From contig NZ_CP166679.1 in NCBI RefSeq assembly GCF_041320605.1, positions 1,550,001 to 1,614,000 on the forward strand: 64,000 bases of DNA. The letters are read 5' to 3'. Numbering within the stretch: the stretch's first letter is position 1; each line of letters begins with the position of its first letter. The notes below the pieces were generated by a model, which ran no database searches, was not told where the DNA came from, and saw only the letters and a program-made list of their open reading frames with translations. This DNA comes from Arenibacter antarcticus. Its GTDB lineage: Bacteria; Bacteroidota; Bacteroidia; Flavobacteriales; Flavobacteriaceae. Of the stretch, positions 6,001-44,000 are shown in pieces. A program made the position numbers and the translations under genes.

Positions 6001-9000
6001 CGGATTGCCGTTTGCTATAGAAATGATAATTTCAGCATCTGGACTAATACTACAATCCAAATCTTTATCAAGAGATGCGTTTACGATAAGTTTAGGATTA
6101 ATAGTAATGGTTTCCGTATCTGTACAGTTTTTATTGTCTATAACGCCTACGGTATAGGTCCCAGGAGTCAATCCGCTAAAAATATTGTTGGACTGGTAGG
6201 CGCCACCATTGATTCTAAATTGAAATGGTGCTTGTCCACCTGAGCTAACAGAAGCAGTTATGGTTAAACCTACAGTAGCATCATAACATAAGTTATTAGC
6301 GTTTAATGCAAGCGCTGGAGCTATGGCCGGATTTAATGTAAAGGTCGTGGAAACACGACATCCATTTACATCGGTAACATCAACACTATAAGGTGCAGAA
6401 GTATCCAATAGGTCCTTAAAAACTCCAGTAGTATTGGAAAATACAGCTCCACTTGGGTCTGTAATTTGATAAGTATATCCACCCCATCCTCCGGAAGTAG
6501 AGATATTCACCGTTCCAGGAACCGTACCGCTTACGGAACAGCTTGGATCCGTAACTACCACTGCATCAATCATCAATGAATCTGCAGGCTCGTTCACGGT
6601 AACCGTGACCGTATCGGTACAATTTGTAGTGTCGTCCGTAACAGTAATGGTATAATCACCAGCCACAAGGCCATTAAAATTCAATGGACTCGTAGTAATT
6701 CCGTTATTCGAAGTTATTGGCGTGGGCCCAGTTACGGTATAACTGTAGGTTCCGGAGAAACCGCTAACATTATATTGTATGACACCATCCGATCCTCCTT
6801 GGCAAGAAACATTCTCCACTAAAGATCCTGATACATTTATCTTTTGGACTGGGGTAATGGTAAAGTTCTCCTCATAGCTACAACCTTTAGAATCAGTTAC
6901 TTTAAAGGTATAGGTATCTGGAGCAAGATTATTAAACACTCCAGTGGTATTGGAAGCTGTTGCTCCCGCAGGATCAATGATCTCGTAAGTGATTGTGCCA
7001 CTTCCACCGGTAACCGAAAGATTCACCACTGACGTCTCTGCCGTACAATAAGGTGCCGTGGCATTAAATGTAATATCCGTTGGTGGGTCTAAGGCCGGGA
7101 TATTTACGGGTATGGTCGCAAATGTACATCCACTGGCATCTTTTACAGTAAGGGTATAATTCCCATTGGTAAGTCCGGTAAAAGTATCTCCTGCAACAAA
7201 TGTCACTCCGTCAATACTATAGGTGTATCCTGGTGTTCCCCCAGTAATATTTTGTACTTGGATGCTGCCCGTCTGTAAGCAAGTATACGGTTGCATTAAT
7301 ACAGCCTCAGCTGCAATAGGGTCTGGCGCAACTAAAGTAGCACTGCCATTATAAGTACAACCTTTACTGTCCTGTACTGTATAATTATAGGTTCCTGATG
7401 CAAGTCCGGAGTAGGTCGTCTCATTGCTAAAGCCTGCACCACTAAAGTTGACTTGATAAGGGGCGGTTCCAAAGTTGGGATCTATTAGAATCTCGACACT
7501 GCCATTGGCAGCACTATCACAAGTTGGATTTATAATATCATTAGTGGCAACGGGATTGGTAATGGGATCTATTACAACAGTGGTCTCCGCTGTACAGCCT
7601 TCACTATCCGTAATTAAAAAGGTATAACTGCCGTCTACGTCCGTGGTATAGGTAATGGTATTCCCTACTACAGCAGTACTTAACCCACCATTAACCTGAT
7701 AGCTATAGCTGGTATATCCGCCATTTATGGTAATATCAATCACGGCATCCACAGAAGTGCTACAATCCAATTCCTTGGTCAAAACACTGGAAACGGTCAA
7801 TTGATTCTCTATCACTACCGTATTGGTAGTTACATTACAGCCATGGGCATCCCATACCTCAACGGAATAGGAATTGGGCGAAAGGTTCTTAAATACATTG
7901 CCCTTTTGTGCCGGAGCACCATTTAGGCTATAGGTATAGGGTGCAATTCCTCCAGCTGCACTAGCAGTGAGGCTAACACCTGTTCCTGGAACATAACAAA
8001 GGTCCGTTGTAGCAGCCAAAGTAGCCGTAGGAATATCAGAGGCAACAATATCAAAGGTCTTGGTCTCTACACAGCCACCAGCATCGGTTACGCTGATGGT
8101 ATAGGTGCCAGTTTGGGTAAGACCAGAAAAAACATGGTCTGACTTTGGTCCTAAAATCGTAGTGTTTGGCTGTTCAATTTCATAAGAATATCCTCCCCAT
8201 CCGTCGGTAGCGGTGATCGTCACCGATCCATCCGTTGTACAAGTCAATGGACTCACCGCAAAAGTAAAGTCCATCATCGAATCGGGCTCACTCACAGTAA
8301 CCGTAGCCGTATCGGTACAGTAGGTAGTATCATCCGTAACAGTAAGGGTATAATCACCGGCCAATAAGCCAATAAAGTTCAATGGGCTAGTAGTAATCCC
8401 ATTTTGTGGAGCTATGGCTGTGGGCCCAGTTACGGTATAACTGTAGGTTCCAGAGATACCGCTAACAGTATATCGTATGGCACCATCGTCACTTCCTAGG
8501 CAGGATACGTTTTGAGTTGTTGTCCCAACTACATTTATTTTCGATACAGTATTTACCGTATAGTTTTCGTTATACGAACATCCATTGGTATCGGTAACCC
8601 TAAAAGTATAGGTGTTGGGAGCAAGATCGTTAAATACACCTGTGGAATTGGTGGCAATGGAAACAGCAGGAGCAAGAATTTCATAGGTAAGGGCACCACT
8701 TCCTCCTGTTACCGCTAAACTAAGGTTTGAAGTTTCGGACGGACAGTTTGCCGCTGTACTACTAAATGTAATATCCGTTGGTGGGTCTAAGGCCGGGATA
8801 TTTACGGGTATGGTCGCAAATGTACATCCACTGGCATCTTTTACAGTAAGGGTATAATTCCCATTGGTAAGTCCGGTAAAAGTATCTCCTGCAACAAATG
8901 TCACTCCGTCAATACTATAGGTGTATCCTGGTGTTCCCCCAGTAATATTTTGTACTTGGATGCTGCCCGTCTGTAAGCAAGTATACGGTTGCATTAATAC

Positions 9001-12000
9001 AGCCTCAGCTGCAATAGGGTCTGGCGCAACTAAAGTAGCACTGCCATTATAAGTACAACCTTTACTGTCCTGTACTGTATAATTATAGGTTCCTGATGCA
9101 AGTCCGGAGTAGGTCGTCTCATTGCTAAAGCCTGCACCACTAAAGTTGACTTGATAAGGGGCGGTTCCAAAGTTGGGATCTATTAGAATCTCGACACTGC
9201 CATTGGCAGCACTATCACAAGTTGGATTTATAATATCATTAGTGGCAACGGGATTGGTAATGGGATCTATTACAACAGTGGTCTCCGCTGTACAGCCTTC
9301 ACTATCCGTAATTAAAAAGGTATAACTGCCGTCTACGTCCGTGGTATAGGTAATGGTATTCCCTACTACAGCAGTACTTAACCCACCATTAACCTGATAG
9401 CTATAGCTGGTATATCCGCCATTTATGGTAATATCAATCACGGCATCCACAGAAGTGCTACAATCCAATTCCTTGGTCAAAACACTGGAAACGGTCAATT
9501 GATTCTCTATCACTACCGTATTGGTAGTTACATTACAGCCATGGGCATCCCATACCTCAACGGAATAGGAATTGGGCGAAAGGTTCTTAAATACATTGCC
9601 CTTTTGTGCCGGAGCACCATTTAGGCTATAGGTATAGGGTGCAATTCCTCCAGCTGCACTAGCAGTGAGGCTAACACCTGTTCCTGGAACATAACAAAGG
9701 TCCGTTGTAGCAGCCAAAGTAGCCGTAGGAATATCAGAGGCAACAATATCAAAGGTCTTGGTCTCTACACAGCCACCAGCATCGGTTACGCTGATGGTAT
9801 AGGTACCAGTTTGGGTAAGACCAGAAAAAACATGGTCTGACTTTGGTCCTAAAATCGTAGTGTTTGGCTGTTCAATTTCATAAGAATATCCTCCCCATCC
9901 GTCGGTAGCAGTGATGGTCACGGATCCATCCGTTGTACAAGTCAATGGACTCACCGCAAAAGTAAAGTCCATCGCCGAATCGGGCTCACTCACAGTAACC
10001 GTGGCCGTATCAGTACAGTGGGTAGTATCATCCGTAACAGTAAGGGTATAATCCCCGGCAACCAGACCAGTAAGGTTAATTGTGTTTGCAGACTGTCCCG
10101 TAATTGTAGAAGCGCCGTTAACGGAATAGCTATAAGTACTACTGAAATCGCTTATATCAAAGTCTATGGCACCGTCTGCACCTCCTAAACAAGTCACGTT
10201 GCTTATCAAAGTACCATTAGCCTGCATAGAAATTACAGGCGTTATAGCATAGGTTTCATCATAAGAACAACCTTTACTATCTGTCACCCTAAAAGTATAC
10301 GTATCTGGGGCCAAATTAGTAAAGGTGGCGGTTTTACCAGTGCTGGTTGTTGCGGCTATAGCCGTTGGAGCAATGATCACTATGGTCAAGGGATTAAACC
10401 CGTTTACAGCAGTTACGGTAACATTGGAGGTTTGTATGGGGCAGTTTGGTGCCGTAGACGAAAAAGTTAAATCTGTAGGCTCGTCTAATGGTGCCAAAAC
10501 TATAGTATTGGTATTAAAGGTACATAGGGTAGCATCCCTAATGGTAATTGTGTAATTCCCGTTCGTAAGGTCGGAAAATGTTTCCGATCCAGGTCCCGAC
10601 ACAAAATTCACCCCATCTATGCTATAGGAATACGGTGCAGTTCCGCCGTTAACATTTTGGACTTCAATAATACCATTTTGGAGACAGGTATAATCTTGCA
10701 CTAAAACAGCATCACCAGAAATTCCGTCTGCAGGTCCTCCAATGGTGAAGTTTTCTATAAAATCGCAACTAGCACCTCCTTTAGATTGCTCAAGAGTTAC
10801 TGTATAATTGCCCTGGGGCAAACTGGTAAAGGTACCAGAGTTGTTTATGATAGTACTACCATCAGGGTAGGTTATGGTATAGGTAACCTTATATCCGCCT
10901 GTTGGCATCATGTTGTAAGTAATTGACCCATCTTCCGCTCCAAAGCAGGTTTCATCGGATACCGAAGTAGTGTATTCCACTGCTGGGACCAATTTAATGT
11001 TAACAATATTGGAAAATACGTAACAGTTGTTCCGGTCTACCACCACAAAAGTATAATCACCTGGATCAAGAATGTCAAAAATCACACTGGTTTGAAATTT
11101 ACTCGGTGGTATTGAGGTTATATTTGGATAGGAGGTAACCGTATTTCCGCCTTCATCCACATAGGACCAAATTGCATAGGTATGAGGTGTTCTGCCACCA
11201 TTGGAATCCATTAATATATTGCCTTCCTTACACGTAATATGTTGGGATACCCGCGCAGTTAGGGTTAAGCCGGCCTCACTAAGTATTGTAACTTTTTCTT
11301 CCTTGTAACAACCATCATCGGTGCGAACGCGGATTATGTAATTGCCTGCATTTAAATTTTGAAAAGTAAAATTATTGTCCGGTTGGGCAGTCTCATTATC
11401 CAAGAGGGTACCGTTGCCTCCGTTACTACCATCATCCAATCGAATTTCATATTCATAATTTCCCTCAACATTTAATGCCTGTATACTTATGCTCCCCAGT
11501 GTGCTACATGTGGTTGGTGTTACGTTGGTAGTGACCTGAAAATCCCGATTTCTAATTCCGATATCTGGAGTCGTGAATTCACAGGAACCATCAATAGGTT
11601 CTCCTGTATTGGCATCCAATTGCATCATACCCACTCGGTAGGCACCATTAGTGTTTATGTCGAAACTTGGACCGTTATTAGCACTATAAGGCACCACTAT
11701 GGTGTTATTAGCTATATCATATAATTGATATCCATATCCTAAACCTAAGTTGGTAATAGTAATATTTCCTGGGGTAGTACATATAATATCATTGGAGCTG
11801 TATTGTATATCTAGGTTATTTTGAAATACATTAAAGTAGAAGCGACTAAAACATCCTCCTTGATAATTGACCACTAGACGGTATTTACCTTCTTGATTTG
11901 CTGTAAAACTCGGACCTACAGAAACTTGGTTCCAGGTACAGGTAGCATTCTTATTACCACAATCATCTCCTGAAGACGTACAACTGCCTTCTACCAATTT

Positions 12001-14115
12001 TTCCCAAACCATACTCTGGGCATCGGCTATGTTAACTTCAATTAATTGTGTATCATTTACCCCACAAAGAAAAATCTTAGGCAAGGGACTTCCGTCTACA
12101 GAACAACTAACAATTTCGCCCTGCACATCGTTGGTAGGATCGGCATCGTTATTACTATTGTTAAAGAAGTCCACAATAGGGTTGGTTTGGGTGGTCCCAA
12201 AACGTTCTACAATCAAAATTTCCTTAAAGCCCTTACAGGGATCGGCAACAATTTTATCTACGATATAGGTGCCTGGATTCCGAACAACAAAGGTACTGGG
12301 GTCATTATCCGAATCTCCATCAGTTATAAGCGTATCTGCGGCATCCAACTCCCCATTGCCATTTTCATCTTTATACCATTTATATTCATCAAAACCATTT
12401 CCGGCATTAAGTACTACTTGTTCACCACAAAGCTGAACTGTCCGTCTAAAATTACATTCATCTAAATTATCCAATAAAAAATTGGTAGCACCAGGAGTAG
12501 AAAATCCACATCCGTCAAATTCAAAAACAGAGGGGTCATCGGTTATTACATTACTGTTAAGTACTCCTTGATAAGTAGAGTAGGCCAAGTTTTGAATAAT
12601 ATCTGAACAGGCGTTTATAAAATCGAAACAGTTTTCCGCTACCTTAACCCGCATACGAATAGTGTTTGGTGAGCGTCCTTTTATTACCATTGAATTTGGA
12701 ATGCTAAACACTACGGTCCTAGTAGGTTCGTCATACGTATAGGTAACCCCAACTGGTAAAATTAAGTTGGTTTCGTCCAGGGTCACATTTATAGGCAGTA
12801 CGTCCTTAATTGTATAATTCGCTGCATTATCGTTCCCAACATTTTGAAACTCCAATACATAATCCAAGGTTTGACCAAGATATACCCCTTGCCCGGTTAT
12901 ATCATTTCCGGCAATATCTTCAACTGTTTTCTTTAAATTAATAATAGGTTCAATAATTTCTACATCAAATGAGGTAAAGAAAATATCATACTTGTCTTGG
13001 GAAGAACTTGCCCGTAATACAGCTCCAGTTTCATTGTTGGGAATGACTCCGTTAAGGGGGTTATTGATATTGATTAAATCTACATCCCAACCCAGTGTAT
13101 TAATAGAGTTTGGATTTCTGTCAGTAACAATTGCGTCTGCTATGGTTATGTTACTATTAAAAAAATTATTAGCTGGGTTTACTGTATTTCCCAAAGGCGT
13201 AAAGACCGCGTTGCTGTTTGCTTTAATGGAAAGTCCGTCTCCCGAAATTCTATTATCACCCTCAAGAGCTGCTACACCAAGTTGGGCAATAACGGGAAAG
13301 CCAATTGGTAGGGTAGTAAAGCCGTTAAAAGGAATATCTACGGTCTGTCCAGATTTTATTCCGGCATACCCATCAAAAGTGGTAATGAATTTTCCAGGTA
13401 AATTTGGATTTTCAAAAACCACTACCATTTTCCAACCTCCAGAAACACCTCCAGAGATATCGTCTCCAGAGCTTGCCCTAATATTGGCCGCAAAATACTC
13501 TCCATTGGGATCAGCCATCCCGGCTACAATGGAGGTAACGTCCTTATAGCAGGCATAAGGACTATAATATCCAAAATCGGCATCCCCTTCCCCATCAAAC
13601 AATATTTCATCTGCCGTTAAATCTTGATAGGTCCCACCTGGAATCTTAAATTTAACTTGGTCAAAACCACTTCTGTCGTTTTCCTTAAAAACCGCAGACC
13701 AGTAAAGACCTGCATACCGTACTTTGGCACAACTAATTTCGGGTACCGTAAGAATTGCGCTACTACTGCTAAAGGTAGATGCATCCCCATCAATATCGAT
13801 GTAATGCATATCCAGATTGTCATTATTCTCTGAGGAGCTCCCTGTCTCGTTATAGGGCTCATTGGGAGAAACAGGAGAAGAAACCCAAACATTCTCCCAT
13901 TTATCACATTTCTCTTTTTTCCATTTAACACATTGTCTTTCCCAATATCCATCTGTTTTTCTATTGACAATATTATTGGCGATAAAGGTGATATCTCCTC
14001 TAATCTCATCTGCATACCGAACCTCAAAGTCGTTTTTTACCTGTGAAAACGCACTAAAGGCGCCCAATAATAAAAAACAAGTTAAGAACAGAGACTTGAA
14101 GGATATTGGCTTCAT
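1..14115 (-). CDS. Giant SprB-like T9SS surface adhesin (3' end outside window)
   Basis: The minus-strand frame is open from ATG at 14115 to the window edge: 4,705 codons with no stop in the lines I checked. Residues 1-24 are a signal peptide ([20 protein letters not shown], then SAFSQ). Residues to about 385 form a non-repetitive head. About 385-540 looks like a DUF11-type domain (starting [20 protein letters not shown]). Cys-containing Ig-like segments follow, and from about residue 850 a tandem array of roughly 45 SprB-type repeats of about 80 residues (PF13573-like: Y.Y.I..G, then L..GNY.I.V.D..GC). Family knowledge: such proteins are exported by T9SS and act as mobile or fixed cell-surface adhesins, in some species for gliding. 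The C-terminal sorting domain would lie outside the window. The upstream neighbours, a PorP/SprF protein and a type B sorted protein, agree with this. The gene is 418 bp downstream of porP, so co-transcription is uncertain. Confidence 0.9.
7065..8211 (-). repeat. Copy A of a 1.15-kb intragenic duplication (period 1,698 bp)
   Basis: This stretch of the giant adhesin matches 8763-9909 base for base by eye, apart from one difference (8107 G against 9805 A on the plus strand). That difference is synonymous (GGC/GGT, Gly). The offset is 1,698 bp, or 566 codons, so the frame is kept. The flanks (8212 onward against 9910 onward) are still similar but clearly diverged. Confidence 0.93.
8763..9909 (-). 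repeat. Copy B of the 1.15-kb intragenic duplication
   Basis: Second copy, 1,698 bp from copy A. The higher-order unit spans about seven SprB-type repeats of about 242 bp. Weaker copies of the same order can be followed to the left (about 5.36-7.06 kb) and at the start of the next unit on the right (about 10.47 kb), so 1.7 kb is a period of this part of the array. Confidence 0.93.
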
Positions 14116-14533
14116 TTTAAAATCTAGTTTGGTTGTATATGGTAGATCCACTTTGGTTGGCTTATTAGTTCGGGAAATACTAGTGTTTATTGTTTGCAAG
14201 GATGGAAAAACAGATCATTCTTGTACATCACTAATACTCAATAACAAATATTAATCTTAAAAGGGAGCTGATAAAGTTATTGTTGTAGAGGCGTTTAAAA
14301 CTGTTGTGAAAAGCAAATAACGCATGGTGTACTTTTTTCCAAATAGGCCTTATAAAATGAGTGTCCGACAAAATCCATAATTGACCGATAATGAACACCA
14401 CTCGTAAAAGTTTGAAAATGGTCTGGTTAATTAATTTGACTGAGATATTATTACATAATTATAAAAGCCACTCACAAAATATACCTTTCAGTATTGAAGC
14501 TAGAAATAAATGTAACATCTTTTAATGAGTATG
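14116..14533. other. 418-bp gap between porP/sprF and the giant adhesin
   Basis: I see no coding frame, hairpin with T-tract or RNA gene here. The minus strand carries a TAATATTTG at about 14244-14252, one base off the TAnnTTTG -7 consensus, too weak to call a promoter. The length of the gap allows a separate promoter for the giant gene. Confidence 0.5.
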
Positions 14534-16615
14534 CTAAGTAAGCTGGCTAGGAGACACTCTCATGATCCACATCTTATCATTGTAGGTATCGTTTATTTTA
14601 GAGTAATAAGATACCAGCGCATTGTTCCATGAGTCGTGTTTTTTTAGATACACATACCGATAGTTATTTTCTGGGTTTACAAAATAACTAGCACTAAGTC
14701 CTTGGGAGTTTAATAATTTGATAAATCTAATGGCATTGTTAGCATTGGCAAAAACACTTACAATGATATAATAGCCTGTGTCTACCCCTTTAATATTGTA
14801 CACTCGAGCACTGGTATTGTTGGCGGATACATTATCCTTGACGACTACGTTTTTCTGAAGTTTATCTGCGGCATATTGGGTAGAGGTTTCCTTTAGCTTG
14901 TTAATATTGTTTGCATAAGCCTTATCTGTATAACTTCGGTTGTCCACATTCATAATCCACATATCGTCTACATAGGTGCCATTAAGTTTAGATTTATGGG
15001 AGGCAAGGGCTTCCTGCCACGTATCGAACCGCTCCAAGTAAACGTATTTTAATCCATTCTTGGGGTTTTCAAAGTAGTCCGCCCTAACTCCATCTTGGGT
15101 AAGGTTATCTATAAACCGGTCCATGTATTTATTTCCTTTGTACACATTGGCCACCACATAATAACCATCGACAACCCCTTCTAAATCTAGAAACTTTTTA
15201 CTTTTTATATTATTCTGTTTCGCCATCTCTGTAAAGTCGTCCTTTTCAGCAGCTTTACTTGTGGAGGTAAGTCCTGACTTTGTATTTGAAGCAATTTTGT
15301 TTATAGCGTCATTAGCCTGTAAAGCTTCTTTTATCCCGATTGGTTTATCGTTGTTTATGGGGGCTTTGGGTTGTAGCGCCAAAGCTTCCTTATTATTATT
15401 TGGTAAATACATGTCCTTTGCTTTAGCTTCCAGATCTGGACGCTTCCCTTGGGTCTCGCTCCTTACCATTTTCATGACCATATCGAACCTGCGTTCCAAA
15501 TCCCTTTGACGGTTAGATTCTAAGGAATCTTGTCTAAACATCAACTCTGCCAATATCGCATCATTTTCTGCAAGCGCCTTTTTAAGTTTCTCCAATTCCA
15601 CTTCTTGGGCAGTAAGTACCTCATCTGGATCAATTTCATTTTCTACCAGTTCATCATAATCATCTTCCAACATTACCCGGTCTTCTGTTAAAGTTGGGGT
15701 TATGGAATAGGCAAAAGAGATCTCGTGGGTAAGTCCGAAATTGTCGAAATTGTTAGACAGCCCCTTTTCCATGGTATATCCTAAGGAGAGTCTTTGGTTA
15801 ATATTAAATCCAATTCCGGCGGAGGCCCCAAAAAAACTATCGTAACCTGCCTGAAGCCATCCCAACTTGGGCAAGTCCAATATAAGGCTTCCCCCTAGCA
15901 CCACTTCTTCCTGCCCCACCTTTCTAACCCGGGCCAAAGGCATTAACCTACCTTGCTCTAAAACACCACTGCCATTTTCAAACTGATGGGTATATTGTAA
16001 GTGTCCAGAAAAGGTCTTGTCCTGAAATTGGCTTACTGTACTACTGGTCTTAAGATTGTAGTCGAACAGATTTTCGGCAAAAACACCGATATCGAATTTG
16101 TCAAAGGAAATATTGAATCCCGGTTGAAAAGACAATAGATTGGAATCCTGTAGCCCGTTTAACGAGGGGTCATTGGGGTCTAAGGCCATCGCCCGGTTCC
16201 TATCAAAACCGCTATTGTAATATGCCAAGTTTGCCCCGAAGGTAAAGTTGCTCTTCTCGCTTAGTTTTATCCCATAAGCAAAATTTGCCATCACCCCATA
16301 GTTGGTAATCAATCCCTCCGTTTGGGTATAAAGACTTAATCCCAGACCATTGCGATCGTTAACCCTACCGCTGTAACTTAAAAAATAATCCTGATTATTA
16401 TCGTTAAAGGATACCGATTGGTTTCTATGAAGCAAGTTAATATAGGATTTATTCTCCCTTACCGTGGAAAACGTTGGGTTTATTAGGAACCGATTAAATT
16501 TTAGAAGGTTCTGCGAAGGAACATCATAAGATACAAACGGGTTCTCCTCTTGAGCGTTTAGGTTGCTAAATACCAATAGGAAAAGTAATAGCTTTATAAA
16601 GTTTTTCTTGTACAT
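14534..16615 (-). CDS. PorP/SprF-family T9SS membrane protein with C-terminal SPOR-like repeats
   Basis: 693 residues; the usual PorP/SprF length is about 300-350. The signal peptide ends at LNAQ (residues 1-21). Residues about 25-310 are the PorP/SprF beta-barrel region (FNRFLINPTFSTVRENKSYI, later SLGYTMEKGLSNNFDNFGLT). About 320-400 is a charged coiled coil (EVELEKLKKALAENDAILAE). Two repeats of about 82 residues follow, at about 478-560 and 608-690, each with GYY, a central YVYL and a closing MWIM. They resemble SPOR-type domains, which in other proteins bind denuded peptidoglycan. In T9SS, PorP/SprF proteins help bring specific adhesins to the surface. The gene lies 6 bp after the type B sorted protein and before the giant adhesin, so it probably serves these two. 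The SPOR assignment is by pattern only. Confidence 0.85.
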   Translation of the reverse strand: MYKKNFIKLLLFLLVFSNLNAQEENPFVSYDVPSQNLLKFNRFLINPTFSTVRENKSYINLLHRNQSVSFNDNNQDYFLSYSGRVNDRNGLGLSLYTQTEGLITNYGVMANFAYGIKLSEKSNFTFGANLAYYNSGFDRNRAMALDPNDPSLNGLQDSNLLSFQPGFNISFDKFDIGVFAENLFDYNLKTSSTVSQFQDKTFSGHLQYTHQFENGSGVLEQGRLMPLARVRKVGQEEVVLGGSLILDLPKLGWLQAGYDSFFGASAGIGFNINQRLSLGYTMEKGLSNNFDNFGLTHEISFAYSITPTLTEDRVMLEDDYDELVENEIDPDEVLTAQEVELEKLKKALAENDAILAELMFRQDSLESNRQRDLERRFDMVMKMVRSETQGKRPDLEAKAKDMYLPNNNKEALALQPKAPINNDKPIGIKEALQANDAINKIASNTKSGLTSTSKAAEKDDFTEMAKQNNIKSKKFLDLEGVVDGYYVVANVYKGNKYMDRFIDNLTQDGVRADYFENPKNGLKYVYLERFDTWQEALASHKSKLNGTYVDDMWIMNVDNRSYTDKAYANNINKLKETSTQYAADKLQKNVVVKDNVSANNTSARVYNIKGVDTGYYIIVSVFANANNAIRFIKLLNSQGLSASYFVNPENNYRYVYLKKHDSWNNALVSYYSKINDTYNDKMWIMRVSPSQLT

Positions 16616-16621
16616 ATCGCG

Positions 16622-18889
16622 TTAGCGTATAACTGTTATTGTCCCTTTTTTTAATGTCTGTTTTGCATTTTTAATGGTATAATAGAACACCATATTCTGT
16701 TTGGGAAACTTCATGGTAGCCTCTGGCCAATTATTCTTGTATTGAAACTGGTTAAGGACCTCTTCCCCTTTTTGGTTATAGATAATTACATGGATCGCCG
16801 GGTCCTTTGTATACGTATTGGGAAGAACCCACTGGTCGTTAAATCCGTCACCATTGGCAGTGATCACATTGGGTACTCCAAAGGTATCCTGATAAGAAAC
16901 GGTAAAGGTTTTGCTTACTTGGCAATCGTTTATCGTTGCAATAATCGTATACGTACCTTCTAGGCTCAGGGTAACGGAATCTGTATCTCCCAATAACACC
17001 TTGTTTTCATCGAACCATTGGTAGCTATTGGCCCCAGTAACAGAAACCTCCCTACTGCTCCCTTCCGGAAAAAGGATGTCCTCGGTTTGCGGATTCAATA
17101 TGATTAAGGAGTCATCAAAAGGGGTAATAACCAATTGATTCGACTTTAAATCGCAACCATTCTTTTCCACCGTCAGTTGATAGGTTCCGGGTTCGGAAAC
17201 CGTTAAAACCTCAGAAGTATCCAATATTTCCAACCCATCCTTGGACCAACGGAAAGTCGCTCCGCTTAAATCCGTACTGGTACTGATAGTAGCAGTATCA
17301 CCAGTACCACAAATTATGGTAGCATTGCTCGTAATAGCTAGCATTTCATTGGTCAATAACCTTACTGGCAAGGCATTGGAAACAGGATTAAATCCATCCA
17401 AGCTCCCGACTAGGGTATAAATGCCATTTTCACCCGTATTTATTAAGCTGATGTTGTTAGAAGTAGCTCCCCCTACATTGACACCATCCTTGGTCCATTG
17501 GTATGCAAAAGACGCTTTTAGGTCAGTGGTTACATCCAATTTAGAACCATCGGACAATACCGCATTGATCCGCGATATTTCCATAGCGATACTAGTATTA
17601 ATGCAATCGGTATAATCAGTAGCGTAATCAATAGTAAATTCAAAGGCATTGGGATAAACCAGAGTAGTAGTTTCAGAACTTATGGTAGCCATTGGGCAAC
17701 TTCCGCCACTTAAGGAGACTTCTGCATAATACACTCCTACAGAATTGGCGACAAGGGTACGTGCCGTTTCCCCATTTAGGGCAAGGTTGTCTTTGTACCA
17801 TTGATAGCTTACTGGAGTTGAGTCCGATGTTACGCTTAAAGTAGTGGTCTGCCCAGGGAGTAGTACCATATTGGCCGGATTGTCCCTACTCACCGAAAAC
17901 ATTCCTGCTTGGGTAATGGTAACCGGATTAGAAGTTTCTGTACAAATACCATCGCCCTGTATTCTTACGGTATAATCACCTGAAAATTGAGCATCATTGG
18001 TATCTATGGCATACGTATAAGCACCTTGGGTACTTCCCTGAACCATATTTCCGTCTTTAAACCAAGTGTAGAATAGGTCCGGATAGTTCATATTGGCCTC
18101 CAAAGGTGCAACAGTCTCACCGGTACACAATACCGTTTTTACAGGCGGGTTTAAGGCCAGCCCCACGCTAGTGCCGATCTGCACTTCCATAGAAAGGGAT
18201 TGGGTATTGGAAGATCCGGAACAGGTAGTCCCATAATCCAATTCAACTACATAAAAACCCCCTTCGGTAACCTCAATGGAAGGTCCATAACCCGACACCG
18301 TGTAAGGAGAGGTATTCCTATACCAATTATACCGATAGGTTTCTGCGTTGGGGACATTGTATACCTCCAATGTGGTAGAACCTCCACCACAGAGTTTTAC
18401 CTGTTTGGCGGGCGTAGGGGCTGTATCCCCAAGTTCCCTAATATTGATTGTGGTATTAAAATCGATATAATACATTTCAAAAGGAAGTGATGGCGGACTG
18501 GTCTTCGCGGGCTTGGTACTCCTAACTCGGAACCTGTAGGCATCTCCCCTAGTATTTTCCGGTAAGGCAAAGTTAAATTCAAAATCGAAATCCGTATTCT
18601 TGTCTGAAACTCTTGAAAGTTCGGTGGCAGTGGTAAACATGCCATTGGCATCGGACAATTCCAAAATAAATTCATTATCCACAGCAACTGTTGGCAACCA
18701 AGTAAAATTAACGTAATACTCATTAAACCCCGCAGATCCGCAGGCCGCTGTCCATACCGAATTTCCCGATAAATTGGGATTATCGGCAGCAGTAGGTCTA
18801 TTCAAAGTCTGCGCAGAAATACCGGTCGTTCCCAAGGCCATAAGGCTTAGGATCATCAGTAAAAATGCATTTATTAGGTTCGGTTTCAT
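16622..18889 (-). CDS. T9SS type B sorted surface protein with Ig-like domains
   Basis: 755 residues. A signal peptide (MKPNLINAFLLMILSLMALG, cleaved after ISAQ) is followed by several Ig-like beta-sandwich units with Cys pairs and the recurring YxWxKDG pattern (for example YTWFKDGNMV, YQWYKDNLAL, YQWTKDGVNV, FRWSKDGLEI). The last 85 or so residues start FGVPNVITANGDGFNDQW and end KGTITVIR. This is the gliding-motility-associated C-terminal domain (TIGR04131/CHU_C) that marks type B T9SS cargo. It is the first gene of a minus-strand group with porP/sprF 6 bp downstream. No enzyme motif is visible; a structural or adhesive surface role is inferred. Confidence 0.88.
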   Translation of the reverse strand: MKPNLINAFLLMILSLMALGTTGISAQTLNRPTAADNPNLSGNSVWTAACGSAGFNEYYVNFTWLPTVAVDNEFILELSDANGMFTTATELSRVSDKNTDFDFEFNFALPENTRGDAYRFRVRSTKPAKTSPPSLPFEMYYIDFNTTINIRELGDTAPTPAKQVKLCGGGSTTLEVYNVPNAETYRYNWYRNTSPYTVSGYGPSIEVTEGGFYVVELDYGTTCSGSSNTQSLSMEVQIGTSVGLALNPPVKTVLCTGETVAPLEANMNYPDLFYTWFKDGNMVQGSTQGAYTYAIDTNDAQFSGDYTVRIQGDGICTETSNPVTITQAGMFSVSRDNPANMVLLPGQTTTLSVTSDSTPVSYQWYKDNLALNGETARTLVANSVGVYYAEVSLSGGSCPMATISSETTTLVYPNAFEFTIDYATDYTDCINTSIAMEISRINAVLSDGSKLDVTTDLKASFAYQWTKDGVNVGGATSNNISLINTGENGIYTLVGSLDGFNPVSNALPVRLLTNEMLAITSNATIICGTGDTATISTSTDLSGATFRWSKDGLEILDTSEVLTVSEPGTYQLTVEKNGCDLKSNQLVITPFDDSLIILNPQTEDILFPEGSSREVSVTGANSYQWFDENKVLLGDTDSVTLSLEGTYTIIATINDCQVSKTFTVSYQDTFGVPNVITANGDGFNDQWVLPNTYTKDPAIHVIIYNQKGEEVLNQFQYKNNWPEATMKFPKQNMVFYYTIKNAKQTLKKGTITVIR

Positions 18890-28362: not shown

Positions 28363-28777
28363 TTACCATTATTTAACGGACTTTGAGATAAAAGAAGAGG
28401 CCGAGTATACCGATTGGATACATAGGATAATAACTTCCGAAAATGGCCTACAAAGGCAACTGGATTTTATTTTTTGCAGCGACGAATATCTTCTGAAAAT
28501 CAATCAAGATTATTTGCAGCATGATACGTTTACGGACATCATTACATTTCCCTATGGTGATGACCAAGGCATTATTGCTGGCGACATTTTTATTTCAGTA
28601 GACAGGGTAAAGGAAAACGCACAAACCTTTGAGGTGAATTTTGACTCTGAAATGCGTCGCGTAATTGCGCATGGCTTGCTACACCTGTTAGGTTTTGGTG
28701 ACAAAAGCGACCAAGAGGCGAAGAAAATGAGGGAGAAAGAAAATGAAAAACTAAAAATGTTCCACGTGGAACACTAG
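28355..28777 (+). CDS. ybeY: Endoribonuclease YbeY (rRNA maturation factor)
   Basis: 140 residues. YbeY is a metal-dependent endoribonuclease in 16S rRNA 3'-end maturation and ribosome quality control. The signature reads HGLLHLLGFGDKSDQE (about 109-124). The first two His zinc ligands are present; the third His of the canonical H-x3-H-x5-H is Asp here, a variant I believe is usual in Bacteroidota. The DTFTDIITFPY segment is typical. It overlaps the end of the DUF4175 gene by 8 bp and lies 6 bp before mnmG. Its last codons (MFHVEH) are written by a parS-like palindrome. Confidence 0.94.
   Translation: MIDYHYLTDFEIKEEAEYTDWIHRIITSENGLQRQLDFIFCSDEYLLKINQDYLQHDTFTDIITFPYGDDQGIIAGDIFISVDRVKENAQTFEVNFDSEMRRVIAHGLLHLLGFGDKSDQEAKKMREKENEKLKMFHVEH
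28758..28773. promoter_or_regulatory. parS-like centromere site 1, inside the ybeY 3' end
   Basis: TGTTCCACGTGGAACA is a perfect 16-bp palindrome and a close match to the widely conserved ParB-binding parS sequence (TGTTTCACGTGAAACA type). It is within coding sequence, ends 4 bp before the end of ybeY and lies 10 bp before the mnmG ATG. parAB genes are not in the window. Confidence 0.8.
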
Positions 28778-28783
28778 AAAATT

Positions 28784-30652
28784 ATGTTTGACAAAGAATA
28801 CGATGTTATAGTAGTAGGAGCTGGACACGCAGGGGCAGAAGCTGCCGCGGCGGCTGCCAATCTGGGATCAAAGACTCTTCTGATTACCATGAACCTCCAA
28901 ACCATAGGACAGATGTCTTGCAACCCCGCAATGGGCGGAATAGCAAAAGGACAGATTGTTAGGGAAATTGATGCCCTTGGTGGATACAGCGGAATAATCA
29001 CCGATAAAAGTGCTATTCAATTTAAGATGCTCAACAAAAGTAAGGGACCTGCCATGTGGAGTCCTAGAGCGCAAAGTGATAGGATGCGGTTTGCAGAGGA
29101 GTGGCGCATAGCGCTAGAGAATACTCCCAATGTAGATTTTTATCAGGAAATGGTTTCAGGATTATTAGTCGAAGGCACTAAAATAGTGGGTGTAAAAACT
29201 TCTTTGGGTTTGGAAATAAAATCCAAATCCGTAGTACTAACCAACGGAACATTCCTTAACGGTTTAATCCATATTGGAAACAAACAATTTGGAGGGGGAA
29301 GAGCAGGGGAAAAGGCATCAACCGGAATTACCGAACAACTGCTTTCCTTTGGATTTGATAGTGGACGAATGAAAACCGGAACCCCTCCAAGGGTAGATGG
29401 TAGGTCCTTAGATTACTCCGCGATGATCCCACAGCCTGGAGATATAAATCCCGATAAATTCTCCTATTTAGACACCAAAGCACTCACCACACAACGAGAC
29501 TGTCATATGTCGCACACCAGTGCTCTGGTGCATGATTTATTACGCGAAGGGTTTGACCGGTCGCCAATGTTCAATGGCAGAATTAAAAGTTTAGGGCCAC
29601 GATACTGCCCCTCCATAGAAGACAAAATAAATAGATTTGCGGATAAGGACAGCCACCAACTATTCGTAGAGCCTGAAGGATGGAATACTGTAGAAGTTTA
29701 CGTAAACGGTTTCTCAACCTCCTTACCAGAAGACATACAATTTAAAGCTCTACGTTCTGTAAAAGGATTTGAAAAGGTAAAGTTTTTTAGACCTGGATAC
29801 GCTATTGAATACGATTATTTTCCACCCACACAATTAAAACACACGCTTGAAACAAAACTAATAGACAACCTATATTTCGCAGGACAAATAAATGGGACCA
29901 CCGGTTACGAAGAAGCAGCGTCCCAAGGATTAATGGCTGGAATAAATGCACACTTAAAAATAAATGAAAAAGATCCATTTATACTACAAAGAGATGAGGC
30001 TTATATTGGAGTTTTAGTAGATGATTTAATCACAAAAGGAACAGAAGAACCTTATAGGATGTTTACCTCTAGAGCAGAATATAGAACGCTTTTACGACAA
30101 GATAATGCAGATTTAAGACTCACTCCAATGAGCTATAAAATTGGCCTAGCCTCAAAAGAAAGATTGGTGCGAATGGAGCAAAAAGAACGGGAGTCTGATT
30201 CATTTGTACAGTTTTTTAGGGAAACCAGTTTTGTTCCCGATGACATAAATCCTATCCTAGACCAATTGGATTCCTCCCTGGTAAAACAACCAGACAAAAT
30301 GTTTAAGGTATTCTCAAGGCCTAAAGTAACTATGGATCACATGAAGGAATTAGAACCTGTATCCAACTATATCAATGAAAACAAATTGGGTAGGGAAGTG
30401 TTAGAACAAACCGAAATTCAGGTTAAATATGCCGGTTATATTGCTAAAGAAAAAAACAACGCAGACAAACTTCAACGTTTAGAAAATATAAAAATTCCGG
30501 ATAATTTTGACTACAGTAAACTAAAATCTTTATCCTTTGAAGCAAGAGAAAAACTAAAATCCATTAAACCCGTAAGCATCTCACAGGCATCAAGAATAAG
30601 CGGAGTATCTCCTAGTGACATCAGCGTGCTTCTTGTGTATATGGGTAGGTAA
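28784..30652 (+). CDS. mnmG: tRNA uridine-5-carboxymethylaminomethyl modification enzyme MnmG (GidA)
   Basis: 622 residues, normal length. With MnmE it installs the cmnm5/nm5 group on wobble U34 of tRNAs, using FAD, NADH and methylenetetrahydrofolate. FAD dinucleotide-binding motif YDVIVVGAGHAGAEAA at 6-21; family signatures GQMSCNPAMGGIAKGQIVRE (about 47-66) and MKTGTPPRVDG (about 198-208); C-terminal helical MnmE/tRNA-binding domain ends ISGVSPSDISVLLVYMGR. Classic origin-proximal gene (gidA). It is preceded by one parS-like site and followed by another in a palindrome that can also act as a terminator. Confidence 0.98.
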   Translation: MFDKEYDVIVVGAGHAGAEAAAAAANLGSKTLLITMNLQTIGQMSCNPAMGGIAKGQIVREIDALGGYSGIITDKSAIQFKMLNKSKGPAMWSPRAQSDRMRFAEEWRIALENTPNVDFYQEMVSGLLVEGTKIVGVKTSLGLEIKSKSVVLTNGTFLNGLIHIGNKQFGGGRAGEKASTGITEQLLSFGFDSGRMKTGTPPRVDGRSLDYSAMIPQPGDINPDKFSYLDTKALTTQRDCHMSHTSALVHDLLREGFDRSPMFNGRIKSLGPRYCPSIEDKINRFADKDSHQLFVEPEGWNTVEVYVNGFSTSLPEDIQFKALRSVKGFEKVKFFRPGYAIEYDYFPPTQLKHTLETKLIDNLYFAGQINGTTGYEEAASQGLMAGINAHLKINEKDPFILQRDEAYIGVLVDDLITKGTEEPYRMFTSRAEYRTLLRQDNADLRLTPMSYKIGLASKERLVRMEQKERESDSFVQFFRETSFVPDDINPILDQLDSSLVKQPDKMFKVFSRPKVTMDHMKELEPVSNYINENKLGREVLEQTEIQVKYAGYIAKEKNNADKLQRLENIKIPDNFDYSKLKSLSFEAREKLKSIKPVSISQASRISGVSPSDISVLLVYMGR

Positions 30653-30708: not shown

Positions 30709-30744
30709 AAAAGTCGATTGTTCCACGTGGAACAATCGACTTTT
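30709..30744. terminator. 36-bp perfect palindrome: mnmG terminator candidate containing parS-like site
   Basis: Every base from 30709 to 30726 pairs with 30744 to 30727. The plus strand continues with T at 30745, giving a T-tract from 30741 to 30745 and A residues on the other side. As RNA it would fold into a long hairpin with T-tract, 57 bp after the mnmG stop. The central 16 bp are the parS-like sequence. Confidence 0.7.
30719..30734. promoter_or_regulatory. parS-like centromere site 2
   Basis: A second identical copy of TGTTCCACGTGGAACA, 1,961 bp from the first, so the two bracket mnmG. It sits at the centre of a longer perfect palindrome. Confidence 0.82.
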
Positions 30745-40724: not shown

Positions 40725-42917
40725 TTAGTCCTTTTTTCCCAATAGAGAAAAATCTAAATGGCGTTTCACAAGATCAGTGCTCTTTACCATTACTACCACT
40801 TCATCCCCTAATTGATAGGTCTTTTTTGTTTTTTCACCAACAATGGCGTACTCCTTGTCATCAAATGTATAATAATCATCCTTTATATCTCTAATTCGGA
40901 CCATTCCTTCACATTTATTCTCTATGATCTCTACATAAAGTCCCCATTCTGTAACCCCAGAGATAACCCCCACAAATTCGCTGTCTTTATGATCCTCCAT
41001 AAATTTGATCTGCATATATTTTATGGAATCCCTTTCCGCATTGGCGGCCAACCCTTCCATATTAGAAGAGTGCTTACATTTTTCCTCGTATGGCTCTGCC
41101 TTTGGTGTAGCTCCGCCATCCAAATAGTGTTGTAATAACCTATGAACCATAATATCTGGATACCTCCTTATCGGGGAAGTAAAATGGGTGTAATAATCAA
41201 AGGCCAGACCATAATGACCTATATTGTCTACGGTATAAATAGCCTTGCTCATACTGCGAATGGCTAAGGTATCTACAAGATTTTGTTCCTTCTTCCCCTT
41301 AACATCCTCTAAAAGCTTATTTAGAGAAGCGCTAATAGATTTTTTATCCTTAAAGTCAAGATTATGCCCAAAACGTGAAATTATCACATTCAAGGCCATT
41401 AATTTATCTTCATCAGGATCTGCATGTACACGGTATACAAAGGTTTTTTCGGGCTTTTGTTTTCCAATAAACCGAGCTACCCTCCTATTGGCCAATAACA
41501 TGAATTCCTCAATCAATTTGTTGGCATCCATGGATTCCTTAAAATAAACGCCTACTGGTTCGCTTTCTTCATTTAGATTAAAACGCACCTCTACTTTATC
41601 AAAGGATAAAGCTCCTTCTTCCATTCGCTGGGACCGCATAATTTTAGCCAATCTGTCCATAGTCAAGGTAGCCTGTACCACTTCTCCATCAACTTGATAA
41701 GCAGCATCCCTAATGGAAATTTCCTCACTTATATTTCCTTCTTGAGTTTCTATAATGTGCTGCGCTTCCTCATAAGCAAATCGTTCGTTAGATTCGGTTA
41801 CCGTACGTCCAAACCATTCGCTCTTAATAACCGCTTTATCATCTATTTCAAAAACAGCGGAAAAGGTATATTTTTCTTCGTTTGGTCTTAGGGAACAAGC
41901 GTTGTTAGACAATACTTCGGGAAGCATTGGGACTACCCTATCTACCAAGTAAACAGAAGTTGCCCTATTATAGGCCTCTTCATCTAAGAGGGTATCTGGT
42001 GTTAAATAATGGGATACATCGGCAATATGGACTCCAATCTCATAATTCCCATTTTCTAATACAGTAAAGGAAAGCGCGTCATCAAAATCCTTGGCATCCT
42101 TAGGATCAATAGTAAAAGTAAGGCTATCTCGCATATCCCTTCGTTTCGCTATTTCCTCTTCTTTAATGGAAGTATCCAAGGTATTGGCGAACATTTCCAC
42201 TTCCACAGGAAACTCGTAAGGAAGTCCGTATTCTGCTAAAATTGAATGAATTTCCGTATTGTGCTCCCCTGGTTTTCCCAATACCTGTACTATCGTACCA
42301 AAGGGGGAGTCGGCATTATCTGGCCACTCTTTTATTTCTACTATTACCTTATCCCCATCTTCTGCAGTAGATAATTTGTTCTTTGGGACGAAGATATCCG
42401 TGTACATTCTATAATCGGTTGGACGTACAAACCCGAAATCCTTTTGCATATCCAAAATACCAACAAAGGAAGTTTTATGTCGGGATACTACCTTAGTAAT
42501 CTCTCCCTCTAATTTTTTTCCTTTTCTTTTTGGAAAGATATATACCTCTACCTCATCTTTATGAAATGCCCTCTTTAATTTATTAAAAGGAACAAAAATA
42601 TCATCATCCATACCTTCTACAACAATATAAGCATTGCCCCGTCCCGTAATATCCACGGTACCAGTATGGTAGGTTTTGGTACTGGGAATGGCCTTATAAT
42701 TCCCTATTCCCTCTTCCAGTATTCTTTTCTTTTCCTTTAGTTGTACCAGCCTCTTAATTAGATTATTTCTATCGTGGGCATCTACTATACCTATCTTTTC
42801 AGCTATTTGTTTATAGTTAAAGGATTTTTGCGGCTCCTTTTCAAGAACAGTGAAAATACCTTTGGTAATTTCGTTATTTCTGTGATTTTTAGTACTCTTT
42901 TTACCTTTTGACATCAA
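40725..42917 (-). CDS. rnr: Ribonuclease R
   Basis: 730 residues. A 3'-5' exoribonuclease that degrades structured RNA. Domain order: winged-helix-like N-terminus (about 15-70), two cold-shock OB folds (about 75-235; GRGNAYIVVEGMDDDIFVPF), the RNB catalytic domain (about 255-585) with FTIDPKDAKDFDDALSF carrying the metal-binding Asp residues, and a C-terminal S1 domain (about 645-725; EFVGVISGVTEWGLYVEIIE). HFTSPIRRYPDIMVHR is also diagnostic. Start at 42917, with a second ATG one codon later. It is divergent from rpiB across the candidate origin region. Confidence 0.97.
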   Translation of the reverse strand: MMSKGKKSTKNHRNNEITKGIFTVLEKEPQKSFNYKQIAEKIGIVDAHDRNNLIKRLVQLKEKKRILEEGIGNYKAIPSTKTYHTGTVDITGRGNAYIVVEGMDDDIFVPFNKLKRAFHKDEVEVYIFPKRKGKKLEGEITKVVSRHKTSFVGILDMQKDFGFVRPTDYRMYTDIFVPKNKLSTAEDGDKVIVEIKEWPDNADSPFGTIVQVLGKPGEHNTEIHSILAEYGLPYEFPVEVEMFANTLDTSIKEEEIAKRRDMRDSLTFTIDPKDAKDFDDALSFTVLENGNYEIGVHIADVSHYLTPDTLLDEEAYNRATSVYLVDRVVPMLPEVLSNNACSLRPNEEKYTFSAVFEIDDKAVIKSEWFGRTVTESNERFAYEEAQHIIETQEGNISEEISIRDAAYQVDGEVVQATLTMDRLAKIMRSQRMEEGALSFDKVEVRFNLNEESEPVGVYFKESMDANKLIEEFMLLANRRVARFIGKQKPEKTFVYRVHADPDEDKLMALNVIISRFGHNLDFKDKKSISASLNKLLEDVKGKKEQNLVDTLAIRSMSKAIYTVDNIGHYGLAFDYYTHFTSPIRRYPDIMVHRLLQHYLDGGATPKAEPYEEKCKHSSNMEGLAANAERDSIKYMQIKFMEDHKDSEFVGVISGVTEWGLYVEIIENKCEGMVRIRDIKDDYYTFDDKEYAIVGEKTKKTYQLGDEVVVMVKSTDLVKRHLDFSLLGKKD

Positions 42918-43568
42918 TACTTTTAATTTTTGGAAAATTACGAATTAATATTCATTGTCCTTCCATTCCATTTTTTAAGTTTTTTTTCAGTTGATAATTG
43001 TTCTTATCAACATTTATATAATATATATATTTCTTTTTTCTTAAATTTAAAAATAAATGGTGTTTATGATAGTGTGTTGATAAGGGGGATAAAATTATCA
43101 AGATATCCTTGCTCTGAGTAGATTTAGAAGTTTGTCGACATCTTATTGACTATTGATAGCTATAGCAATCAAGGTATTGATGTAGTTATCAATACTTGTT
43201 GATAACCTATGTAAACATAAAATTATTGATAAGTAAAGTTTAAAATAGTGTTAACTACTTCATTTTTATCTTTGATATCTTTTTAAGAGATTTAAGAAGT
43301 AAATTATTTATTTCCCTTATTCTTTTGTAAGGCACTTTTTTAATGAATATAAAAAATTTAGTAGTTACTTTTTATCGGCTGTTTATCAACAAAAGGTGAA
43401 TTTTATTAAACCACTAAATAACAATACAGTTACGTTATTTCTAATTAATTGTTGTTAACAACCTAGTTTCTGTGGTGAAACCATTGGTATTTGTACATTT
43501 GTATTCCTTACTATATGTAATATTAGAGGTTTTAAATATTCTATTAATTTTAAACTGGCTTTATAAGG
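42918..43568. other. Candidate replication origin (oriC) region
   Basis: 651 bp without a gene between divergent rnr and rpiB, very AT-rich. Four exact copies of the 9-mer TTATCAACA (one base from the DnaA box TTATCCACA) lie at 43004-43012 (+), 43075-43083 (-), 43197-43205 (-) and 43383-43391 (+). One-mismatch copies lie at 42989-42997, 43186-43194 and 43224-43232. A stretch of almost pure A/T at 43011-43060, including a TATATA run, could be the unwinding element. A palindrome GTTGTTAACAAC is at 43451-43462. I rate it a candidate only; see findings. Confidence 0.5.
43494..43501 (+). promoter_or_regulatory. Promoter -7 element of rpiB
   Basis: TACATTTG matches TAnnTTTG, 67 bp before the rpiB ATG. 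No convincing -33 TTG at the right distance. Confidence 0.4.
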
Positions 43569-44000
43569 ATGAAAATAGCAATAGGTAATGATCATGCTGG
43601 AACTGAATATAAACTTGCCATTATTGGATTGTTAAAATCTATGGATTTAGAAGTCAGTAATTACGGTACCAATGGTTCAGATAGTGTAGATTACGCAGAT
43701 TTTGTACATCCAGTGGCCAAAGACGTAGAAAGTGGTGATGCTGATCTTGGTATTTTAATCTGCGGTAGTGGTAATGGGGTATCTATGACTGCCAACAAGC
43801 ATCAGAAAATTAGGGCCGCTCTTTGTTGGAATACGGAAATTGTGAAATTAGCGAGGGAACACAATGATGCCAATATTTTAAGTTTACCAGCCCGTTTTAT
43901 TTCATTGCCTCAAGCTTTGGATATGGTGAAAACGTTTATAAATACTTCCTTTGAAGGTGGGCGCCATGAAAGACGAATAGAAAAAATACCCTGTTTATAA
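43569..44000 (+). CDS. rpiB: Ribose-5-phosphate isomerase B
   Basis: 143 residues, normal length. Interconverts ribose 5-phosphate and ribulose 5-phosphate in the pentose phosphate pathway. MKIAIGNDHAGTEYKL (1-16), the SVDYADFVHPVA block and the active-site loop GILICGSGNGVSMTANK (about 59-75, catalytic Cys) are typical of the RpiB/LacAB family, as is FEGGRHERRIEKI at the end. It is divergent from rnr with its own TAnnTTTG element, and 119 bp upstream of the GNAT gene. Confidence 0.95.
   Translation: MKIAIGNDHAGTEYKLAIIGLLKSMDLEVSNYGTNGSDSVDYADFVHPVAKDVESGDADLGILICGSGNGVSMTANKHQKIRAALCWNTEIVKLAREHNDANILSLPARFISLPQALDMVKTFINTSFEGGRHERRIEKIPCL

Follow-up and report, generated by a model that had tools for sequence, protein, structure and literature searches.

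Gene content of the rnr-rpiB region

The chromosome of Arenibacter antarcticus is a single contig of 4,694,007 bp, and the stretch analysed here (the window, 64,000 bp) spans its positions 1,550,001-1,614,000. Within it, an AT-rich gap (genome 1,592,918-1,593,568) lies between two divergent genes. Coordinates below are those of the window.

40725-42917, - strand: rnr, ribonuclease R, left flank (NCBIfam TIGR02063)
42918-43568, no strand: candidate oriC, 651 bp, 76% AT, between divergent rnr and rpiB
43494-43501, + strand: TACATTTG, -7 element of a candidate rpiB promoter (probable; read from the sequence)
43569-44000, + strand: rpiB, ribose-5-phosphate isomerase B, right flank (NCBIfam TIGR01120)

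The divergent rnr/rpiB pair, named in a preliminary description of this DNA that proposed a replication origin between the two genes, was confirmed by NCBIfam for both genes. If rnr starts at the in-frame ATG at 42914 instead of the TTG at 42917, the gap becomes 42915-43568. The same description called the gap gene-free, and among ORFs of at least 60 aa this stands, the sole one being of 63 aa with a TTG start and no Pfam match. An Rfam search of the whole window at gathering scores gave zero matches. Several imperfect inverted repeats occur in the gap (e.g., 43151-43169 with 43176-43194), for which we claim no role. The element TACATTTG upstream of rpiB we take to be the Bacteroidota TANNTTTG-type -7 element, and the 8-mer TACCTTTG is enriched, being present in 42 of 105 relatives' gaps (own gap included). 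Among the listed matches from named organisms, the closest RpiB proteins are from Arenibacter, at 87-90% identity (own-genome records were possibly omitted). The dnaA gene opens the contig (position ~1) and is 1.6 Mb from the candidate gap.

At the left of the window, a giant - strand reading frame (1-14199, at least 4733 aa) extends beyond the window edge and carries SprB repeats (PF13573) in 12 stretches. Beside it are a PorP/SprF protein (14534-16615) and a CHU_C/Ig-like protein (16622-18889), and the region 1-18889 is probably a giant type IX-secreted adhesin locus.

Box cluster and AT tract

The gap contains nine copies of a candidate DnaA box, counting those with at most one mismatch to TTATCAACA, and one nearly pure A/T tract.

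42989-42997, - strand: DnaA-box-like TTATCAACT, 1 mismatch; position not kept in 12 aligned relatives
43004-43012, + strand: candidate DnaA box TTATCAACA, exact match, beside the AT tract
43013-43058, no strand: candidate DNA unwinding element, 44 of 46 bases A/T (unwinding presumed from AT composition)
43075-43083, - strand: candidate DnaA box TTATCAACA, exact match
43095-43103, + strand: DnaA-box-like TTATCAAGA, 1 mismatch; not kept in 12 aligned relatives
43186-43194, + strand: DnaA-box-like TTATCAATA, 1 mismatch; TTATNAANA in 9 of 12 aligned relatives
43197-43205, - strand: candidate DnaA box TTATCAACA, exact match
43224-43232, - strand: DnaA-box-like TTATCAATA, 1 mismatch
43383-43391, + strand: candidate DnaA box TTATCAACA, exact match
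43450-43458, - strand: DnaA-box-like TTAACAACA, 1 mismatch; same in four Arenibacter

The four exact copies on both strands (43004 +, 43075 -, 43197 - and 43383 +) are those reported earlier, the "at least three" one-mismatch copies proved to be five, and the single further exact copy in the window (46309, - strand) is indeed the only other one. When the 651-bp gap was dinucleotide-shuffled 1000 times, exact TTATCAACA occurred at a mean of 0.018 and a maximum of 1 (observed: 4), which bears out the rough earlier estimate of far below one; with one mismatch allowed, the mean was 0.52 and the maximum 4 (observed: 9). The 9-mer is not over-represented genome-wide, with 84 exact matches vs 94 for its backwards control. 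No second such cluster occurs among the 84, and the number of groups of four exact copies within 391 bp expected genome-wide is ~5e-6. When up to one mismatch was allowed across a contiguous 324 kb, the gap held nine boxes, and the runner-up among 500-bp windows held three. In the same 324 kb, AT content over 50 bp is highest within the gap, in the window starting at 43009, and the tract at 43011-43060, described as almost pure A/T, has 45 A/T bases out of 50. No DnaA-trio motif or array was recognised by eye in this tract.

The consensus of the E. coli box is TTWTNCACA, to which other lineages need not conform, and the main 9-mer TTATCAACA departs from it at position 6. The exact E. coli box TTATCCACA does not occur within the gap; four gap sites are within one mismatch of it.

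The exact sites differ in how well they are kept. Site 43004 is the best-kept box, with TTATCAACA in 9 of 12 aligned relatives and TTATTAACA in the other three. At 43075 the aligned relatives have CTATAAACA, CTATTAACA, TTATTAACA or weaker forms, and in four Arenibacter the sites at 43197 and 43383 read TTGTCAACA and TTGTTAACA, respectively.

Conservation of the gap in relatives

Eighty loci were collected from named relatives, two of which were excluded because their contigs were too short. In 77 of the 78 evaluable ones, rnr and rpiB are divergent and separated by 498-2459 bp (median 645 bp), and the remaining one has no divergent rnr within 3.5 kb; comparison of related gaps, which the preliminary description had proposed as a check, thus came out in favour of a conserved place. 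Among family genomes, the pair was present in 27 of the 30 best RpiB matches (own included) and in 14 of 20 loci chosen from the remaining RpiB matches. Six of these 20 lacked it: L144 is cut off by a contig end, and L141, L146 and L151 still have an AT-rich gap of 507-580 bp with another divergent gene opposite. L144 belongs to a single-contig record (G025 C1; rpiB at 3532806-3533231) that ends ~1.2 kb upstream of rpiB; the origin may thus already have been placed near this point by whoever set the start of that record.

Outside the family, rnr was found within 2-2.5 kb upstream of rpiB in 0 of 20 loci, and the divergent arrangement is therefore a family-level trait in our sample. In six of these loci (L158, L162, L166, L167, L168 and L170), rpiB diverges from a gene of ~320-330 aa, which in L158 reads by eye like quinolinate synthase. 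The gaps there are AT-rich, 430-620 bp long and have few exact boxes; they may represent an earlier site of the origin, or may simply be promoters. In two further non-family genomes, one of the same order (G118 C2) and one of the same class (G140 C95), rnr and rpiB are close neighbours on the same strand, and the pairing of the two genes may be older than their divergent arrangement.

For k-mer enrichment, 105 non-redundant gaps were used (118 collected, one dropped for length and 12 thinned; own included). The 9-mer ranked first was GTTATCAAC (37 gaps vs 0.55 expected), followed by TTATCAACA (55 gaps vs 2.75 expected). Also enriched were TTATTAACA (65 gaps vs 7.25), the promoter-like TACCTTTGT (31 vs 1.15) and the E. 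coli box TTATCCACA (11 vs 0.6). The number of exact TTATCAACA copies is not conserved, since most of the 77 named gaps have 0-2 and one has 3, and four named Arenibacter have one each. Conservation of the 9-mer, on which the preliminary description had made its proposal depend, hence holds for the enrichment of TTATCAACA in related gaps, but the four exact copies are peculiar to A. antarcticus. Common to the relatives are the gap itself, one putative box position adjoining the AT tract, and a set of related box variants. The term "lineage-specific box" has to be softened, because TTATCAACA was also predicted as a DnaA box in Cyanothece 51142.

Replication strand asymmetry

Raw GC skew in 20-kb windows was noisy around the switch and at the far end of the chromosome, and we therefore used fourfold-degenerate sites of long ORFs with the gene-strand effect removed, sampling 43% of the chromosome. 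The best two-switch model changes from - to + at 1,590-1,595 kb and from + to - at ~3,855 kb, with a fit score of 644 vs at most 68 in 100 ORF shuffles. The bootstrap 95% range of the first switch (1155 ORFs, 400 resamples) is 1,585,104-1,594,010, which contains the gap, so this sampled skew agrees with the proposed location. The range of the second switch is 3.80-4.01 Mb, and the antipode of the gap is at 3.94 Mb. A separate one-break regression over the contiguous 324 kb gave a range of 1,586,607-1,604,868. The three 16S genes that were found all point away from the candidate: those at 24 kb and 335 kb are on the - strand, and the one at 2,274 kb is on the + strand.

These data bear on whether replication starts at dnaA, the usual origin marker (contig position ~1). 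Upstream of dnaA there is one exact TTATCAACA, 315 bp from the end of the contig, and the same 500 bp hold two one-mismatch E. coli-type boxes. Against this, there is no skew switch at dnaA, the skew being negative on both sides of position 1, and two of the three 16S genes would oppose replication from there. A Prevotella paper also describes oriC as commonly far from dnaA in Bacteroidetes. We regard an origin at dnaA as having a negligible chance of being correct.

parS-like sites and the mnmG neighbourhood

The mnmG gene (28784-30652; genome 1,578,784-1,580,652) is bracketed by two parS-like sites.

28758-28773, no strand: parS-like TGTTCCACGTGGAACA just before mnmG, two mismatches to TGTTTCACGTGAAACA
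30719-30734, no strand: parS-like TGTTCCACGTGGAACA just after mnmG, two mismatches to TGTTTCACGTGAAACA

Their presence 12-15 kb from the gap, with mnmG nearby, is as previously described. They have a palindromic core near the candidate origin, and one ParB gene was found in the genome, at 269 kb. The core TTCCACGTGGAA has two exact copies in the genome, both at these positions, and its backwards control has none at the two places. The classical parS core TTTCACGTGAAA has zero exact copies in the genome and 20 one-mismatch matches, which are scattered and fewer than those of its backwards control (40); TTCCACGTGGAA was used instead for this reason. It is present in 12 of 14 single-contig genomes (own included; absent from G025 and G040), and all of its 23 sites are at most 57.4 kb from rpiB, which indicates that this neighbourhood is close to the origin in those genomes as well. 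The two sites are 1961 bp apart in A. antarcticus, and the seven other complete relatives with more than one site likewise show a spacing of 1.90-1.99 kb.

The placement of TTCCACGTGGAA alone does not separate the rnr-rpiB gap from mnmG as the origin. An origin adjoining mnmG (28.4-31 kb), with the rnr-rpiB boxes as a DnaA-titration or regulatory site, would suit the two flanking parS-like sites, and Ori-Finder 2022 put the origins of Mariniflexile litorale and Algorimicrobium at mnmG (in the M. litorale paper, the labels for the predicted origin in the text and in the figure legend conflict). In A. antarcticus, however, TTATCAACA with up to one mismatch has zero copies at 28.3-31 kb, and mnmG is outside both skew ranges, with a worse one-break fit (264.2) than the gap (250.4) or the best position (248.9).

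Box density and skew in individual relatives

Four relatives (G032, G061, G071 and G023) were compared with A. antarcticus one by one. When boxes were scored with a matrix whose training set left out the gap under test but kept relatives' gaps, the rnr-side gap contained the densest 500 bp of each of the five regions (200-324 kb), although margins were small in G071 (46.8 vs 42.5) and G061 (59.6 vs 49.0). This is again at odds with an origin at mnmG.

The skew of the four relatives cleanly picks the gap in none of them. For G061, the range (1,594,524-1,640,690) is between the gap (1,643,202-1,644,127) and mnmG (~1,587,750) and just misses both, and for G071 it is broad (736,628-921,327), with gap and mnmG fitting equally. 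The best break in G023 (~1,014 kb) is ~22 kb beyond the cluster at rnr, and its range is broad as well. In G032, the best break (~1,603 kb) is nearer to mnmG (15 kb) than to the gap (24 kb) in distance, which favours mnmG; yet the bootstrap range includes the gap and excludes mnmG, and the gap fits almost as well (131.3) as the best position (128.6), whereas mnmG fits worse (145.5).

When E. coli-type boxes (TTATCCACA with up to one mismatch) were counted over 200 kb, the densest 500 bp in G032 and G061 was ~3 kb from mnmG, with three copies in each. This would fit an origin there, and may explain the mnmG predictions mentioned above. The peak of such boxes in G071 is not at mnmG, and in A. 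antarcticus (4 copies vs 3) and G023 the densest window is the rnr-side gap. The G032 gap has one E. coli-type box vs eight of the variant type, which suggests why searches with the E. coli box can fail, yet such a search did find the gap of A. antarcticus itself. Taken together, we consider an origin at mnmG very improbable.

G023 is informative because its rpiB is away from rnr, 37 kb from the box cluster. A 200-kb scan of this genome gave one strong cluster (top 500-bp window at 991,409), located directly before rnr (match from 991,989) and including three boxes that are exact TTATCAACA. Moving away from rnr (C1, ~991221-991989), the box cluster comes first and then a short gene that reads by eye like ribosomal protein bS21. 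Since the cluster stays at rnr without rpiB, it follows rnr and not the rpiB promoter. This speaks against the boxes being control elements of the divergent rnr and rpiB promoters, bound by DnaA or another regulator, with the origin elsewhere nearby. Such a role would agree with the promoter-like elements at both ends of the gap, read from the alignment and from k-mer enrichment. But the conserved blocks occupy the middle of the ~600-bp gap (11 aligned loci, by eye), and the cluster is the only one of exact TTATCAACA in the genome and is located at the skew switch. We rate a purely promoter-related role as very improbable, even more so than an origin at mnmG.

DnaA and the box code

The DnaA protein has the box-binding domain IV, which aligns with solved DnaA chains including 1j1v. 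At one position it has alanine where all five aligned chains have threonine; these we take to be E. coli (1j1v, residue 435), B. subtilis, A. aeolicus (two) and M. tuberculosis DnaA. According to a review, E. coli DnaA recognises TnCACA through its helix 434-451, and binding is impaired by the T435M substitution. In A. antarcticus the helix motif RDHATVLHA is encoded at genome positions 1509-1534, inside dnaA. A DNA pattern for this helix matched in 95 of 100 family genomes, with an alanine codon in all 95 (read by eye). Among 198 genomes sampled across the phylum, 19 of 20 family genomes matched, all with alanine, and in the non-family matches read, serine was the rule, threonine occurred in three genomes and alanine in none. 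The pattern gave no match in 29 of 30 non-family genomes of the same order and the same class.

It is conceivable, and we offer it only tentatively, that Flavobacteriaceae use their own origin code, in which DnaA has alanine 435 and the box has changed by drift from TTATCCACA into TTATCAACA/TTATTAACA. Origins in the family would then really be beside rnr, and E. coli-box searches could put them in the wrong place. As a hypothesis, alanine 435 goes with the C6-to-A change in the box. Two observations count against this pairing: TTATCCACA is enriched in the gaps by a similar factor, which points to a preference that has been relaxed and not switched, and Cyanothece likewise has TTATCAACA among its predicted boxes.

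A candidate origin between rnr and rpiB

The box cluster, the AT tract, the skew switch, the 16S orientation, the parS-like placement and the family-wide conservation of the gap are all seen in the sequence. On this basis, the rnr-rpiB gap is very probably a DnaA-type oriC, at a place conserved in the family, far from dnaA and with a variant box. The interpretation first proposed from the window is thereby strengthened, as the sampled skew switch, the related gaps and the parS placement are all favourable in A. antarcticus.

At such an origin, DnaA, encoded 1.6 Mb away, would bind the boxes on both strands, and a DnaA filament could melt the adjoining AT tract (43013-43058), which borders the best-kept box (43004). 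Helicase would be loaded at the melted tract, and two forks would leave, one through rnr and the other through rpiB, and converge at about 3.80-4.01 Mb. At the two parS-like sites 12-15 kb away, bound ParB may hold the new origins for segregation.

If correct, this gives an origin position for a large, ecologically important marine family, and a defined point, upstream of rnr, on which studies of replication, growth rate and segregation can be based. Records in Flavobacteriaceae may open at dnaA, as the DnaA motif is within the first 1.6 kb in 4 of 14 single-contig genomes.

Comparison with known systems

An oriC with DnaA boxes is of a known kind. No paper among the matches listed places an origin between rnr and rpiB, though DoriC may already hold the site for relatives; neither this address nor the box/DnaA pairing was found in the literature searched, among the matches listed. 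The candidate resembles the DnaA-dependent oriC of the E. coli/B. subtilis type in having 9-mers on both strands, an adjacent AT-rich tract, a skew switch, nearby parS-like sites and a DnaA with a box-binding domain. Unlike that type, it is far from dnaA, its box TTATCAACA is off at position 6, and it is flanked by rnr and rpiB.

Several predicted origins in the literature are similar in part. Those of Prevotella intermedia and Elizabethkingia meningoseptica share the location away from dnaA and the presence of DnaA boxes (the latter is 649 bp long, with three boxes and two AT-rich elements), but were based on the E. coli box. The mnmG-adjacent predictions for Mariniflexile litorale and Algorimicrobium share the neighbourhood of mnmG with its parS-like sites, whereas here the box cluster and the skew switch are 12-15 kb from mnmG. 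The oriC of the linear chromosome of Cyanothece 51142 is alike in that TTATCAACA is printed among its predicted DnaA boxes, and DnaA domain IV bound a two-box oligonucleotide containing TTATCAACA, though less strongly than it bound TTTTCCACA; it differs in having three boxes between hypothetical genes and in belonging to a cyanobacterium.
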